Positions 42,097 through 48,151 of a stretch of 64,000 bases of DNA are shown piece by piece. Each line of letters begins with the position of its first letter. The first letter of the stretch is position 1. The stretch lies in contig NZ_BBYJ01000025.1 of the NCBI RefSeq assembly GCF_001528665.1, positions 62,001 through 126,000 of the forward strand. The letters are read 5' to 3'. The notes under the pieces are model-generated. The model was not told the DNA's origin, made no database searches, and was given only the letters and a program-made list of their open reading frames with translations. Made by a program: the position numbers and the translations under genes. Source of the stretch: Microtetraspora malaysiensis (GTDB lineage Bacteria; Actinomycetota; Actinomycetes; Streptosporangiales; Streptosporangiaceae).

Positions 42097-42891
42097 ATGT
42101 GGATCAATCAGGTGACCGAGATCCTCCTCGAGGCCGCCGAAGTCGCGATCCTTCCCCGGTTTCGGGCGCTGGCCGAAGGAGAGGTCGCGGAGAAGTCTCC
42201 CGGTGAGGTGAGCACCGTGGCTGACCGTGAAGCCGAGGAATTGATCAGCCGTCGGCTGCGCGGCGTGCTGGATGCCCCGGTCGTCGGTGAGGAGGCCGCG
42301 TCCGACGACGCCGGACTCGTCACGGCGCTGCGGGAGGCGCCGGCGGCCTGGCTGGTCGACCCGTTGGACGGGACCTCGAACTTCGTCGCGGGCCGCCCCG
42401 AGTACGCGGTGATGGCGGCGTTGGTGCGAGGAGGGGAGACCGTCGCGGCGTGGATCGTGCGCCCCACCGAAGGCCGCGTATACGTCGCCGAAAAGGGGGC
42501 GGGGACCTGGCGCGACGGAGTCCGGGTGCGCCGGGAACCGGCCCCCGTCGATCCGGCGAAGCTGCACGGGGCGGTATTGACCAGGTTCCTCGATCCGCGG
42601 GCGAGGGCACGGGTCGAGGCGGCAGCACCCCGATTCGCCACCCTGGGGCCGGGCACCGCCTGCGCGGGCGTGGACTATCCACGGCTTCTGGACGGCGACC
42701 AGGACTTCGTCCTGTTCCGGCGGACCCTGCCCTGGGATCACGCGCCCGGCGTGCTGCTGCTGACCGAGGCGGGCGGTGTCGCCCGCCGTCCGGACGGCAG
42801 CCCCTACCGGCCCGGGGACCCGCGCCCCGGCTTGCTCAACGCCGCAGACCAGACCTGCTGGAACACCGTGCGCTCGCTTCTGCTGACCTGA
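42097..42891 (+). CDS. Inositol monophosphatase family protein
   Basis: Mg2+-dependent phosphatase of 264 aa. Metal motif 1 has VVGEEA (GEE), motif 2 is WLVDPLDGTSNFVAG, and motif 3 is PWDHAPGVLLLTEAGG (WDxxxG). Such proteins hydrolyse inositol phosphate, histidinol phosphate or related sugar phosphates. The ATG at 42097 follows TAACGT by eight bases. It stands alone after the lipase-like gene. Histidinol-phosphatase activity is possible because actinobacterial HisN belongs to this family. Confidence 0.87.
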   Translation: MWINQVTEILLEAAEVAILPRFRALAEGEVAEKSPGEVSTVADREAEELISRRLRGVLDAPVVGEEAASDDAGLVTALREAPAAWLVDPLDGTSNFVAGRPEYAVMAALVRGGETVAAWIVRPTEGRVYVAEKGAGTWRDGVRVRREPAPVDPAKLHGAVLTRFLDPRARARVEAAAPRFATLGPGTACAGVDYPRLLDGDQDFVLFRRTLPWDHAPGVLLLTEAGGVARRPDGSPYRPGDPRPGLLNAADQTCWNTVRSLLLT

Positions 42892-43187
42892 CCCACCGAC
42901 ACCGGCCAGGGCGTGCGCGGCGGTGACGGCGACCCCGTCCGCCGGGGACCGCCCCGGGAGACGCCCGTCCGCAGGGAACCGTCCATCTCCTTCACGACTG
43001 ATCCTTTTCCGTTGTCGACGACCGTCGCCAACCCAGAGGGCGGGTCGTGACATGCTCCCCCCGATCCGGGTAGCTGTGACGGTTACGGTGTCCACCGATC
43101 GCCACGAATTGGCTGGTGCACACCTACTGAAGGCAGGCAATTCCGCAGACCTTGGCCGTGGAACGCGGCCAGGAAGGGTGCGGCACG

Positions 43188-44279
43188 ATGACCGACAACA
43201 TGCTGGATCTTCCACTCGACGCACGGCCGGACCCCGACGCGTTCGTCCGTGCCGCGATGGAATGGCACTTCAACCCCGAAACGGGCTCCGCCTATTGGCT
43301 GGAGCGCGCGAAGACACTGGACTTCGACCCGCGTACGAATGTCCAGACCCTGGACGACCTGGCCCTCTTCCCGAACATCGTCAACGACCTGCGCGATGTC
43401 CGCGCAGAGGACCTGATCCCGCAGGGCTACGGCCCGAATCCGGACGTCGTGGGCGTGTACGAGAGCGGCGGCACCACAGGCTCGCCGAAGCGCGTGGTGG
43501 TCCTGCGGGACTGGTGGTCCCGCAGCACGGACTGGATGAACGCCCACCTGGACGCCGCAGAGTTCCCGCGCGACGTCGACTGGCTCTCCATCATGCCGAG
43601 CGGGCCGCACCTCGCCGGTGAGATGCCGAGAGCGCTGGCCACCAGGCGCGGCGGCATCACCTTCTACCTGGACATGGACCCGCGCTGGGTGAAGAAGGTC
43701 ATCGCCGCGGGCAAAGCCGAGGAGGCGACGGCCTACGCCGAGCACCTCATCGACCAGGCGGCGTTCGTGCTGCAAACCCAGGACATCGGCGTCATCATCA
43801 CCACGCCACCGCTCCTGGAGCGGCTCGCGGGCCGTGACGACCTGGTGAATCTGATCAACGAGAAGGTCAAGGGCATCGTCTGGGCCGGGACCCACATGGA
43901 CGCCGACACCCGCTTCCTGTACATGACCGAAGTGTTCCCCGCGGTCAGGCTCCACGGCATCTACGGAAGCACGATGCTCGGAGGCGGCATATTCGAGCGC
44001 ATCCGCCCGGAGGACGATGACGCGTGCGTCTTCGACCCGCCCTCCCCGTTCATCACCTTCCGCGTCGTGGACCCCGAGACCGGCCGCACCGTCAAGTACG
44101 GCGAGCGCGGACAGGTCGTGATGAACCACGTCAGCAAGAACATGCTGCTGCCCAACAACCTGGAGCGCGACATCGCCACCCGGGTCGAACCGCCGGCCGG
44201 CCAGACCGGTGACTCCGTGGCCGATGTCTCCCCGGTGACCCAGTTCGAGGACGAGGCCGTCATCGAGGGGGTGTACTGA
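43188..44279 (+). CDS. ANL-type adenylating enzyme without C-terminal domain (EhpF-like)
   Basis: Carboxylate-activating enzyme of 363 aa. The phosphate loop ESGGTTGSPKR (about 92-102) is that of acyl-adenylating (ANL) enzymes. HGIYGSTMLGGGIFERI is the A5-like core, and DPETGRTVKYGERGQVVMNHVSKN follows. The roughly 100-residue C-terminal lid domain is absent, as in EhpF of D-alanylgriseoluteic acid biosynthesis, which has about the same length. AGGAAGG lies about ten bases before the ATG. Its stop overlaps the aldehyde dehydrogenase start. Together they could activate and reduce an aromatic acid to an aldehyde. Substrate unknown; no phenazine core genes are in the window. Confidence 0.75.
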   Translation: MTDNMLDLPLDARPDPDAFVRAAMEWHFNPETGSAYWLERAKTLDFDPRTNVQTLDDLALFPNIVNDLRDVRAEDLIPQGYGPNPDVVGVYESGGTTGSPKRVVVLRDWWSRSTDWMNAHLDAAEFPRDVDWLSIMPSGPHLAGEMPRALATRRGGITFYLDMDPRWVKKVIAAGKAEEATAYAEHLIDQAAFVLQTQDIGVIITTPPLLERLAGRDDLVNLINEKVKGIVWAGTHMDADTRFLYMTEVFPAVRLHGIYGSTMLGGGIFERIRPEDDDACVFDPPSPFITFRVVDPETGRTVKYGERGQVVMNHVSKNMLLPNNLERDIATRVEPPAGQTGDSVADVSPVTQFEDEAVIEGVY

Positions 44280-45646
44280 TGACCGATCCGATCCACATCG
44301 ACGCGCTGGGCCCCCACGGCGCCTACCGGGCGCGCAACCGGCTGGTCGTCCCCGACGTGGCGGGCAATCCGCTGGTCGAGCTCAGCCTCGTACCCAAGCT
44401 GTTCGTGACCCGCGCCATGTCCGCAATGCGCAAGGCCGACACGCTCCGCCTGGAGGAGCGCCTGGCCGCGCTGGCCGAGGCGGGCGAGCTGTTCGCCACG
44501 GGAGTGGTCGACGGCCTGTCCGCAACCGACTACCAGTACACGGTCAGCCGGGTGGCCGGCACGCCGCTGCCCGTCGTGCGGGGGGCGGTGCGGGCCATCG
44601 CCGACAGCGCCGCCGGAGCGTTCGGGAGCGCGCAGCAGGCCCGGCCCGTCGGCGCGGTGCACGACTGGCGCGACCCGAAGGCCCGGGACGGCACCGCGGT
44701 CTGGATCCGGCGCGGGGACGTCTTCGCCGTCCATGCGGCGGGCAACCACCCCGGCGTGCACAGCATCTGGCTGGAGGCTCTCGCACTCGGCTTCCGGGTC
44801 GCGGTACGGCCTTCGCGGCGCGAGGCGCTGACGCCGTACCGGCTGATCTCCGCGCTGCGGGCGTCCGGGTTCGGAGCGGACCAGATCGTGCTCCTGCCCA
44901 CCGACCACGAGGCGGCCGACGAGATCCTGCGCCAGGCCGACCTGGCCATGGTGTACGGCGGGCAGGAAGTCATCGACAAGTACGCCGCGGACCCGACGGT
45001 CCTACCGAACGGGCCCGGCCGGTCGAAGATCCTGATCACCGCGGACTGCGACTGGCGCGACCACCTCGACATGATCGTCGACTCGATCAGCCACGAGGGC
45101 GGCGCGGCCTGCATAAACACCACCGCGGTCTTCGTCGAGGGCGACCCGGCTCCGCTCGCCGAGGCGATCGCCGCACGGCTGGGGGTGATTCCCAGCCTGC
45201 CGCCGGAGGACGACAAGGCCGTGCTCACGGCGTACTCCCTGCCGGCCGCGAAGAAGATCGAGAGCTACCTCCGATCCAAGGCCGAGGGTACGACCGCCGT
45301 TCTTGAAGCGGAGGTGGACGAACTGCCCGACGGCAGTGCCGTGCTCCGCCCGGCCGTCCACCTGCTCGACAGTCCCTTCTCCGAGCAGGCGGGCATCGAA
45401 CTGGCCTTCCCGTGCGTGTGGGTGGCCCCCTGGACGCGTGCGGCCTGGTCCGCCGTGTTCCGTGACAGCCTGGTCCTCACCGCCGTGACCAAGGACGAGC
45501 GCCTGCTGGACGACCTCCTCGCCGACCCGACGATCAAGAACCTGTACATCGGCGACCACCCGACGTACTGGATGGCGCTGGGCGTCCCGCACGACGCGTA
45601 CCTGGGCGAGTTCCTGATGCGCACCAAGGCCGTGATCCGCGACTGA
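44279..45646 (+). CDS. Aldehyde dehydrogenase / acyl reductase family protein (EhpG-like)
   Basis: NAD(P)-dependent enzyme of 455 aa. The cofactor domain shows VFAVHAAGNHPGVHSIWLEALALGFRVAVRPSRREALTPYRL, the helix IVLLPTDHEAADEILRQADLAMVYGG, and the catalytic Cys in GGAACINTTAVFVEG. It lacks the Glu/Cys spacing of ordinary aldehyde oxidisers and looks like a reductase of activated acyl groups. Its ATG overlaps the preceding TGA by one base (TGATG). The coupling argues for a two-step reduction with the upstream adenylating enzyme. Confidence 0.75.
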   Translation: MTDPIHIDALGPHGAYRARNRLVVPDVAGNPLVELSLVPKLFVTRAMSAMRKADTLRLEERLAALAEAGELFATGVVDGLSATDYQYTVSRVAGTPLPVVRGAVRAIADSAAGAFGSAQQARPVGAVHDWRDPKARDGTAVWIRRGDVFAVHAAGNHPGVHSIWLEALALGFRVAVRPSRREALTPYRLISALRASGFGADQIVLLPTDHEAADEILRQADLAMVYGGQEVIDKYAADPTVLPNGPGRSKILITADCDWRDHLDMIVDSISHEGGAACINTTAVFVEGDPAPLAEAIAARLGVIPSLPPEDDKAVLTAYSLPAAKKIESYLRSKAEGTTAVLEAEVDELPDGSAVLRPAVHLLDSPFSEQAGIELAFPCVWVAPWTRAAWSAVFRDSLVLTAVTKDERLLDDLLADPTIKNLYIGDHPTYWMALGVPHDAYLGEFLMRTKAVIRD

Positions 45647-45870
45647 GTCTCGGCCTTGACGCGGGTCGGCGCGGTGCCCAGCCCAGGGAGACCGCCACGG
45701 AACTGTCCGTCGCCACCGCTGACCGACGCGCTCCGGCAGGGGAAGGCCGAGGTGGCGAGGTGGTGGCTGGTCGTTCGCCCTCGAGGTTGAGGTCGAGCAA
45801 CGCTTGGTCCGGAAGCCTGGGCGGGGAACCCGCGTACCTCAGGCGTCTCTTGACGTGATCGGCCCCGGGG

Positions 45871-47388
45871 TCACCTCGCCGGACCGAACCAGGTGGCGAG
45901 CGCCTCGCCCAGACCGTCGCGCCCGCCGGCCCAGGCCACGTACCCGTCGGGCCGTACGAGCAGAGCGCCCGCGTCCGGCGCGCCCTCGATGGGGGCCGCA
46001 CGTACGCGATCCCGATGCCCCGCCACGACCCCGCCGGGCCAGTCCTGACCGGGCGGTCCGACGAGCAGCCCCCGGCCGTCGGCGAGCAGTCCTCCGCTCG
46101 ACGCCTCCGGCGGCGTCGCCGATGGCGGGACGAAGCGGCCGACCAAGGGCTCGGCGGCGTCGGGCGCGTAGTCCACGTCCGTGCCCTCGACCATCGCCGA
46201 GAAGTACCGCCTGGCGTCCGGCAGCTCCAGCACCTCGGTCAGCACCTCACGCAACGCGTCCACCTGGGCTCCCGTCCGCATGAGCGCCACCTGCGCCCGG
46301 GTGTTGCGCAGCACCCGGGCGGCCACGGGGTGCCGCTCGGCGGTATAGGTGTCCAGCAGGCTGTCGGGGGCCAGCCCGCGCGCCACCAGCCCGAGTTTCC
46401 AGCCCAGGTTGACCGCGTCCTGCAGGCCGAGGTTGAGCCCCTGCCCGCCGATGGGCGAGTGGACGTGCGCCGCGTCTCCGGCCAGCAGCACCCTGTCCTT
46501 GCGGTAGGTGTCGGCGTGCCGGGTGTTGTCGCTGTAGCGGATCCCGGCCTCCAGCCGGGTGACGACCACGTCGACGCCGGTCACGCGCCGCAGGCTTCCC
46601 TGCAGTTCCCCGGCCGTCATCGGCGCGTCCCGCTCGCCCGGCCCGCCGTCGAACTCGATGGTGGCGATCTCGCCCGGCACCAGCGACAGGTTCACCAGCC
46701 CGCCCTGACCGCGCAAGGACGAGGTGATCGCGCCGGAGTCGGCCAACGCGGCCACCGCCGTCCGTCCCGTCATGGTCGCGGGCGTTCCGGAGAAGGCGAA
46801 AGCGGATCGCTTGCGCACCACGCTCCGCCCGCCGTCGCACCCGACCAGGTATGCCCCGCGGACCACCTGCCCGTCGGCGAGCATGGCGGCGACGCCGTTC
46901 TCGTCCTGCGTCACGTCGGTCACCCGGCAGTTGTGGCGGACCGTGACCCCGAGCTCGGCGGCCCGTGCGGCCAGTACGCCTTCGAGCTGGTGCTGCTTGA
47001 GCATGAGGTAGTCGGCACCCCCGCCCGGCTCCAGCAGCGGAAGCCCGCTGAAGTGCCCTCGGATCATGCCTTTCTGGGCCACCTCGGCCATGAAGGCGAC
47101 CACGTCGGCCTGGGCTGGCGGCGCGTCCTTCAGGTCGGCTCCGGACTCGCGACGCCGGCCCAGCTCCTCGAACATCGCCCGCTGCGCCTCGGCCAGCGGC
47201 TCGACCAGCCCGCGCAGGGCGAGCGACCGCAGGGTGCGGGCGTTGAGGGAGCGCAGGCCCAGGCTGCGGGTTCTGCGTTCCTCGCCCGAGGCCGCCTCCA
47301 GGACCAGTACGCCGGCCCCGGCCAGGGTCAGTTCGCAGGCCAGCAGCAGGCCGACCGGGCCGCCGCCCACGACGATCACGTCGGTCAT
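45871..47388 (-). CDS. FAD-dependent monooxygenase with C-terminal thioredoxin-like domain
   Basis: Aromatic hydroxylase of 505 aa resembling polyketide hydroxylases such as PgaE/RdmE and antibiotic-modifying relatives. FAD motif VVGGGPVGLLLACELTLAGAGVLVLEA is at the N-terminus. The DG motif is YLVGCDGGRSVVRKRS, and the second FAD motif is DRVLLAGDAAHVHSPIGGQGLNLGLQDAVNLGWKL. The last 120 residues (DGRGLLVGPP through VRPDGYVAWAG) form the usual C-terminal domain. It is divergent from a TetR gene with three operator repeats between them. Substrate unknown. Confidence 0.9.
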   Translation of the reverse strand: MTDVIVVGGGPVGLLLACELTLAGAGVLVLEAASGEERRTRSLGLRSLNARTLRSLALRGLVEPLAEAQRAMFEELGRRRESGADLKDAPPAQADVVAFMAEVAQKGMIRGHFSGLPLLEPGGGADYLMLKQHQLEGVLAARAAELGVTVRHNCRVTDVTQDENGVAAMLADGQVVRGAYLVGCDGGRSVVRKRSAFAFSGTPATMTGRTAVAALADSGAITSSLRGQGGLVNLSLVPGEIATIEFDGGPGERDAPMTAGELQGSLRRVTGVDVVVTRLEAGIRYSDNTRHADTYRKDRVLLAGDAAHVHSPIGGQGLNLGLQDAVNLGWKLGLVARGLAPDSLLDTYTAERHPVAARVLRNTRAQVALMRTGAQVDALREVLTEVLELPDARRYFSAMVEGTDVDYAPDAAEPLVGRFVPPSATPPEASSGGLLADGRGLLVGPPGQDWPGGVVAGHRDRVRAAPIEGAPDAGALLVRPDGYVAWAGGRDGLGEALATWFGPAR

Positions 47389-47401
47389 TCCGACTCCTCT
47401 A

Positions 47402-47447
47402 CTTACGCCGTATGCTTACACCGTAAGTAGAACACGTACGGCGTAAG
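47402..47447. promoter_or_regulatory. Triple operator CTTACRCCGTAAG
   Basis: CTTACGCCGTATG (47402-47414), the palindrome CTTACACCGTAAG (47415-47427), and CGTACGGCGTAAG (47435-47447, the same motif reversed). The outer arms CTTACGCCGTA and TACGGCGTAAG form an 11-base inverted repeat. They fill most of the gap between the divergent monooxygenase and TetR genes. Confidence 0.65.
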
Positions 47448-47482
47448 CTTTGTCAAACGATCAGGGAGGAAAGGACGGCTTG

Positions 47483-48151
47483 ATGGCACGGCGCGAGTCG
47501 CTGAACAGGGAGAAGGTTCTCGACGCGGCCCTCGATCTGGCCGACAGAGAGGGCCTGGAGGGACTGTCCATGCGGCGCCTGGCCAAGACGCTCGGCGTCG
47601 AGGCGATGTCGCTCTACAATCACGTCTCCAACAAGGCGGATCTCGTCGACGGCATCGTTGAGCGCGTGTTCGAGCAGGTCGAGCCGCCCGACCCGGCCCT
47701 GCCCTGGCCGGAGCAGGTGCGAGCGACCGCGCTGAGCATGCACCGCGTCTTCAGCCTCCATCCGGTGGTGCCGCTGGCGCTGGCCACCGACCGGTCCAAT
47801 CCGACCTCGCCGCGGGCCATGGGGGCGATGGACGGTCTGGTCGGGGCGCTGTTCCAGGCCGGGTTCGACGAGCGGGGCGCCTGGCGCGCGCTCGGGGCGA
47901 TCAACGGGCTGGTGTACGGAGCGCTGCTGCTGGCGACGGCCGGCTTCACCGGCGCCCCCGGGGCGCACGCGGGCGAGGAACAGGTCGGGGTCTACATCCG
48001 GCGGCTCGACCCGGCCCGGCTGCCGCACTTCAGCAGGCTGCTGGGCTGGACGACGCAGGGCGACGTGAACCCGGCGGCGGACTTCGAGCAGGCCCTGGAC
48101 ATGCTGATCCAGGGCCTGGAGGCGACGGCGAAAAGCGGTCACAGCGGATGA
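47483..48151 (+). CDS. TetR-family regulator with TetR_C_1-like domain
   Basis: Repressor of 222 aa. The helix-turn-helix is ADREGLEGLSMRRLAKTLGVEAMSLYNHVSNKADLVDGIVE, and the C-terminal domain resembles those of tetracycline-type TetR proteins. GGAGGAAAGG precedes the ATG at 47483. It is divergent from the long FAD monooxygenase, and the pairing resembles tetracycline- or polyketide-responsive repressor/hydroxylase couples. Ligand unknown. Confidence 0.9.
   Translation: MARRESLNREKVLDAALDLADREGLEGLSMRRLAKTLGVEAMSLYNHVSNKADLVDGIVERVFEQVEPPDPALPWPEQVRATALSMHRVFSLHPVVPLALATDRSNPTSPRAMGAMDGLVGALFQAGFDERGAWRALGAINGLVYGALLLATAGFTGAPGAHAGEEQVGVYIRRLDPARLPHFSRLLGWTTQGDVNPAADFEQALDMLIQGLEATAKSGHSG

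Follow-up and report, generated by a model that had tools for sequence, protein, structure and literature searches.

The locus at positions 43188 to 45646 of the window (the whole 64-kb stretch of DNA analysed, part of contig C25 in an assembly of 8.8 Mb that is 99.7% complete) raises the question of what two coupled genes related to ehpF and ehpG do outside a phenazine cluster, and on which acid they act. The pair is intact, stands alone and belongs to a known family of two-protein carboxylic acid reductases, and we consider it probable that it works as a free-standing two-component carboxylic acid reductase of the GriC/GriD - EhpF/EhpG type, its substrate likely being an aromatic carboxylic acid.

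The gene pair and its predicted reaction

The features of the locus are the following.

43188..44279, + strand: gene 1, EhpF/GriC-type lid-less ANL adenylating enzyme, 363 aa (phmmer, AlphaFold model, Pfam AMP-binding)
43461..43490, + strand: ATP-binding motif ESGGTTGSPK, residues 92-101 of protein 1 (S93-T97, G98, P100 and K101 invariant in 32 relatives)
43881..43895, + strand: WAGTH, residues 232-236 of protein 1; position 236 separates most stand-alone members (His, as here) from most phenazine-cluster members (Gln)
44277..44281, + strand: TGATG stop/start overlap of genes 1 and 2 (from the sequence; also present in most close relatives)
44279..45646, + strand: gene 2, predicted EhpG/GriD-type acyl-AMP reductase of aldehyde-dehydrogenase fold, 455 aa (Pfam Aldedh, model, ALDH structure matches)
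45008..45028, + strand: NGPGRSK, residues 244-250 of protein 2, at the place of ELGGK (profile alignment to betaine aldehyde dehydrogenase)
45110..45112, + strand: catalytic Cys278 of protein 2 (invariant in both alignments, aligned with the ALDH nucleophile)

The initial annotation had given the coordinates of the pair, the 363-residue length and the TGATG coupling correctly to the base. Because the genes are joined by TGATG, the last A of the stop codon is also the first A of the start codon, an overlap of one base. Both open reading frames are real, selected genes: G+C at codon position 3 is 0.91 in gene 1 and 0.93 in gene 2, and comparison with the nearest relatives gave dN of 0.16-0.17 and dS of 0.38-0.50 for gene 1, and dN of 0.09-0.12 and dS of 0.39-0.50 for gene 2, the dN/dS of about 0.2-0.45 against the closest relatives indicating purifying selection. 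The pair seems to form a separate operon; a scan for promoters and terminators from 42700 to 47600 found none.

Protein 1 had been described as a lid-less, EhpF-like ANL enzyme, a description borne out by both phmmer and the predicted structure. Its best phmmer match was EhpF (249 bits, E 9e-73, query residues 15-363), PaaK being the next PDB family at E 0.002, and Pfam AMP-binding scored 36.1 bits (cut-off 29.9). EhpF (3hgv) was also the best PDB match of the AlphaFold model (pLDDT 91.5; TM 0.89 on the query and 0.93 on the target), ranking before PaaK-type ligases with TM 0.6-0.7, and matches outside the ANL fold were not the best. The catalytic lysine of other ANL enzymes sits in a C-terminal lid; protein 1 ends after the N-terminal ANL fold with EGVY, as EhpF does, and therefore lacks the lid with this lysine. 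PaaK-type aryl-CoA ligases, the next-best folds after EhpF, keep the lid and make CoA thioesters, and their identity to protein 1 is only about 17%. Assignment of protein 1 as a PaaK-type CoA ligase was rejected, given the missing lid and scores of 21-22 bits with PaaK models whose cut-offs are 646-700.

In oxidising aldehyde dehydrogenases, the Glu of the ELGGK motif activates water. Protein 2 matches Pfam Aldedh (45.4 bits, cut-off 23), its model (pLDDT 92.2) matches ALDH structures including GapN (E 6e-25), and it is 73-85% identical to its closest relatives. Asn244 aligns with the hydrolytic Glu in the betaine aldehyde dehydrogenase profile alignment, and the relatives carry N/Q-GPGRSK instead of ELGGK, with GPGRSK near-invariant. 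Judging from these alignments, loss of the Glu would suit reduction of an acyl group and not oxidation of an aldehyde to an acid, and the retained Cys278 with Asn244 in place of Glu fits a putative acyl-AMP to aldehyde reductase. Pfam, fold and Cys278 all agree with the earlier view of protein 2 as an EhpG-like, aldehyde-dehydrogenase-type reductase coupled to gene 1.

The likely reaction of the pair is proposed by analogy with GriC/GriD. Protein 1 would convert a carboxylic acid, most likely an aromatic one, and ATP to an acyl-adenylate, and since it has no C-terminal lid it is not expected to go on to the second half-reaction, which normally involves CoA or a carrier. The acyl group would then be passed to Cys278 of protein 2, where the thioester would be reduced by NAD(P)H to the aldehyde. 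The initial proposal of a system that activates and reduces a carboxylic acid is supported as probable by homology, fold and motifs. It is exceedingly improbable, in our judgement, that protein 2 is an ordinary aldehyde dehydrogenase and protein 1 a CoA ligase without a joint reaction: the Pfam labels, which are only AMP-binding and Aldedh, would allow it, but the lid and the hydrolytic Glu are missing and an EhpG partner lies nearby, often overlapping, in 79 of 80 named loci (the best 80 of at least 582 relatives found in the scan of named genomes, analysed for their neighbours).

Surroundings, relatives and the phenazine question

An inositol monophosphatase-family gene ends 296 bases upstream of the pair. 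Directly downstream, positions 45871-47388 (- strand) encode an FAD monooxygenase with rifampin monooxygenases as relatives (its 335 bits do not reach the equivalog cut-off of 800), and a TetR-family gene at 47450-48151 (+ strand) is divergent from it. These three window neighbours do not recur beside the pair in relatives, and no conserved metabolic neighbour of the pair was found in the window's clade.

The pair had been called an orphan, with no phenazine core gene in 64 kb, and this status holds for the window and for the whole genome. Searches of the window by tblastn with Phz proteins, including PhzD, PhzF and PhzG, gave no match. The own genome, searched as a whole, has a single EhpF-type gene, no PHZA_PHZB (PhzA/B) match over the cut-off, no PhzE at E<=1e-60 (the best PhzE-like match, 36% identical, is probably a general chorismate-utilising synthase) and no match to GriH (PF01959). 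Since PhzE, PhzA/B and GriH are all absent, both known substrate routes, to phenazines and to 3-amino-4-hydroxybenzoate, are missing.

Within the taxonomic family of the window, 52 of 341 genomes carry an EhpF homologue at E<=1e-30, and relatives of the pair are found in hundreds of GTDB species (at least 582 relatives in the named-genome scan); a search of viral contigs found none. Neither PhzE nor PhzB was present in the flanks of 59 of the best 80 of these at least 582 loci, flanks extending to 10 kb at the most and being smaller where contigs were short. Stand-alone pairs are therefore the majority of the sampled family, which is new here, and the neighbour comparison places the pair usually outside phenazine clusters and not always inside them. 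The window's clade comprises Actinoallomurus, a MAG, Planosporangium, two Ktedonobacteria, RYN_240 and Nonomuraea, none with a Phz gene nearby, and the members from phz clusters form mainly one nested group in the tree of the pair (a quick tree with SH-aLRT support only). Relatives in Chloroflexota are 67-69% identical. In genus g97 the pair occupies one conserved chromosomal locus in the eight genomes inspected, and one genome (G034) has two pairs, one of them next to PhzE and the other by itself.

Residue 236 of protein 1 adjoins the GG motif, which lines the acyl/adenine pocket in ANL enzymes. It is His in 62 of the 84 members without PhzE or PhzB nearby, and among phz-cluster members His in 2 of 31 and Gln in 24 of 31, counts that include relatedness among members, residue 236 following phylogeny in part. 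All three grixazone-type members have Ser at this position (GTS). The window protein has His236 and not the Gln/Glu of most phz-cluster members, Gln/Glu236 as a phz marker being a correlate found here and not an established definition. Some of the "orphans" that have Gln fall together with phz members and may be located at the edge of a cluster.

Co-occurrence with PhzE was considered as a hint to a phenazine substrate and set aside. With linkage classes assigned by hand from contig positions and neighbours, PhzE is present in 11 of 29 genomes that have stand-alone pairs only, compared with 47 of 306 genomes that lack a close pair (p=0.008). The significance is nevertheless due to a single genus: when g97 was left out, the figures became 3 of 16 versus 47 of 306 (p=0.72). 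The dependence of the co-occurrence on g97 and the His236 of the window enzyme together make a phenazine substrate less likely. A tailoring role in phenazine formation is also disfavoured by the absence of PhzE and PhzA/B from the genome and of PhzD, PhzF and PhzG from the window.

It is accordingly very improbable that the pair is a displaced tailoring module whose pathway, to a phenazine or a similar antibiotic, is encoded at another place in the genome. Its nearest biochemical namesake does act on a phenazine dicarboxylate, the tree of the pair has phz-cluster members nested in it, and 8 of the 13 pair-bearing g97 genomes have PhzE far away (the other five have none). However, PhzE is missing from the own genome and its four nearest relatives, PhzB is missing from the own genome, stand-alone pairs outside g97 do not co-occur with PhzE, and residue 236 is His instead of Gln.

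Several relatives have distinctive surroundings. Pairs beside PhzD/PhzE or PhzE, with no PhzB nearby and with a variant NWVGTQ motif, occur in Sphaerimonospora (L028, L061) and at L084 and L128, where the product is possibly chorismate-derived and other than a phenazine. An EhpF/EhpG pair and a gene with the annotation clbA belong to a phenazine cluster on an E. coli IncFIB plasmid (NZ_CP076707.1, L021), and a similar gene order has been reported in a Proteus mirabilis integrative element (PMC11278526). In the subclade of L097, L101, L103, L109 and L112, a gene whose product bears a cucumopine-synthase C-terminal domain (PF18631) is conserved some 2 kb upstream of the pair, a histidine phosphatase-family gene is also present, and at L103 a DAO flavoenzyme gene precedes the pair; an aldehyde-making pair next to a possible Pictet-Spengler-type enzyme is suggestive. 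At L025 (9929-11014, annotated as arylcarboxylate reductase) and L034 (9440-10618), a GriC-like lid-less adenylating gene stands beside a type I PKS, no EhpG partner being found at either locus, possibly reflecting use of the same fold for PKS starter loading. On a plasmid of the haloarchaeon Halalkalicoccus jeotgali (L024, 8941-11557) a distant pair (about 35% and 27% identical) lies next to the gene of a sodium:solute symporter, a possible importer of the acid. Signs of decay were also seen: a 99-aa EhpF fragment, 64% identical and 57 kb away from that genome's intact pair (L033, 8939-9235; G021:C1:6060939-6061238), is a decayed second copy, and the EhpF-type gene of Nocardia crassostreae (L112, 10001-11032) has one stop codon within the tblastn span, possibly a pseudogene or a sequencing error.

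Regulation and physiological role

In three Actinoallomurus genomes (genus g52) and one MAG, a TetR gene is divergent from the pair, and the intergenic region of about 130 bases contains the palindrome TTACNNNACNGTNNNGTAA, which may be an operator. A TetR protein 45-46% identical occupies the same place in G021 and G199, and three Nocardia have a divergent LysR gene in place of TetR. The palindrome is absent from the window with up to two mismatches allowed, no orthologue of the Actinoallomurus TetR above 36% identity was found in the own genome, and none stands beside the window pair. The TetR gene at 47450 was considered as a counterpart and found to be unrelated. Either the regulator and palindrome were lost at the window locus or the pair has moved.

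We tentatively infer that the substrate comes neither from the neighbouring genes nor from an endogenous phenazine or 3-amino-4-hydroxybenzoate route, and a role on an unlinked or external aromatic acid is plausible, the leading options being unlinked host metabolism and a response to an external acid. The first, in which the pair contributes to an unlinked, cryptic natural product or to the salvage of aromatic acids (acid to aldehyde to alcohol), is possible, though we stop short of calling it probable: AMP-binding was matched 59 times in the 8.8-Mb genome, with many of these matches in open frames as large as those of NRPSs, and the single chromosomal spot conserved in eight g97 genomes is as expected for a core function, but the window's clade offers no conserved metabolic neighbour.

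The second, an inducible detoxification in which the pair reduces a foreign carboxylic-acid antibiotic or a plant or microbial aromatic acid, with phenazine-1-carboxylate as a candidate, seems rather unlikely. A two-gene module without biosynthetic neighbours, the divergent TetR with its conserved palindrome in Actinoallomurus and the MAG, the divergent LysR of three Nocardia and the 67-69% identical Chloroflexota copies, which suggest transfer, all point to it, as does the modification of phenazine-1-carboxylate by other bacteria (PMC10856480). Against it, aldehydes are often more toxic than acids, the signs of inducibility are confined to relatives, the regulator being missing at the window locus, and the active-site signature is unlike that of phenazine-type enzymes. 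Broader still, and improbable, is the idea that the His236 stand-alone pairs are a widespread, transferable and ligand-induced means of reducing carboxylic-acid antibiotics or allelochemicals of neighbours (phenazine-1-carboxylate, for example), from which the clusters obtained GriC/GriD and EhpF/EhpG; if true, this would be a mechanism of reductive detoxification or interception not described before. The Actinoallomurus TetR gene and its palindrome offer a direct way to the ligand.

Comparison with known systems

The one-polypeptide carboxylic acid reductases (CAR) of Nocardia and Mycobacterium use ATP and NADPH to turn an acid into an aldehyde. In CAR an ANL domain is fused to a carrier and a short-chain reductase, whereas the window pair has no carrier and its reductase is of ALDH fold. 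Reduction of carboxylic acids is a sought biocatalytic step, and a compact, carrier-free two-protein module that is free-standing in many actinomycetes and some Chloroflexota would represent a large pool of candidate enzymes. Knowing what the stand-alone form acts on would show if antibiotic pathways took over an acid-handling module that already existed.

The resemblance to EhpF and EhpG of D-alanylgriseoluteic acid formation (Pantoea/Enterobacter agglomerans), noted at the outset, extends through sequence (about 38% and 34% identity), fold, length, the EGVY end, gene order and overlap. However, EhpF/EhpG sit among phz genes and use a phenazine substrate, and EhpF has GTE at residues 234-236 where the window protein has GTH. 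The pairs of phenazine clusters in actinomycetes and Burkholderia ubonensis are mostly 54-64% identical to that of the window; they are flanked by PhzB, PhzD, PhzE, PhzF and PhzG and mostly have GTQ at these residues.

The two-enzyme logic proposed here is that of GriC/GriD of grixazone formation in Streptomyces griseus: a later paper states that GriC forms the acyl-AMP of 3-amino-4-hydroxybenzoate and GriD reduces it to the aldehyde, so that two proteins make up the carboxylic acid reductase (PMC10179220). The comparison with the window pair was made with homologues from grixazone-type loci in place of the S. griseus proteins; identity is 45% and 32%, and these homologues have GTS instead of GTH. 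GriC/GriD accompany GriH/GriI, the makers of 3-amino-4-hydroxybenzoate, whereas the window genome is without GriH. In the class searched, GriH (PF01959) occurs in 17 of 394 genomes, with an EhpF/EhpG-type pair at 3 of the 14 GriH loci fetched; one such pair (L199) lies among genes for a tyrosinase, GriH, an aldolase of DeoC type (GriI) and an aspartate kinase, which is the layout of a grixazone-type locus. A grixazone-type 3,4-AHBA reductase in the strict sense was rejected for the window, its genome having no PF01959 match.

A literature search by the names of such reductases returned nothing relevant. The initial annotation had ranked the pair as a candidate for an undescribed pathway, which does not hold as far as the chemistry is concerned, since the GriC/GriD reaction is described in PMC10179220 and GriC/GriD homologues belong to the same family. 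What is already known is thus the chemistry; new here are the divergent TetR gene and shared palindrome of the window's closest relatives, the stand-alone majority of the family, and the prevalence of His236 in stand-alone members where those of phenazine clusters mostly have Gln.
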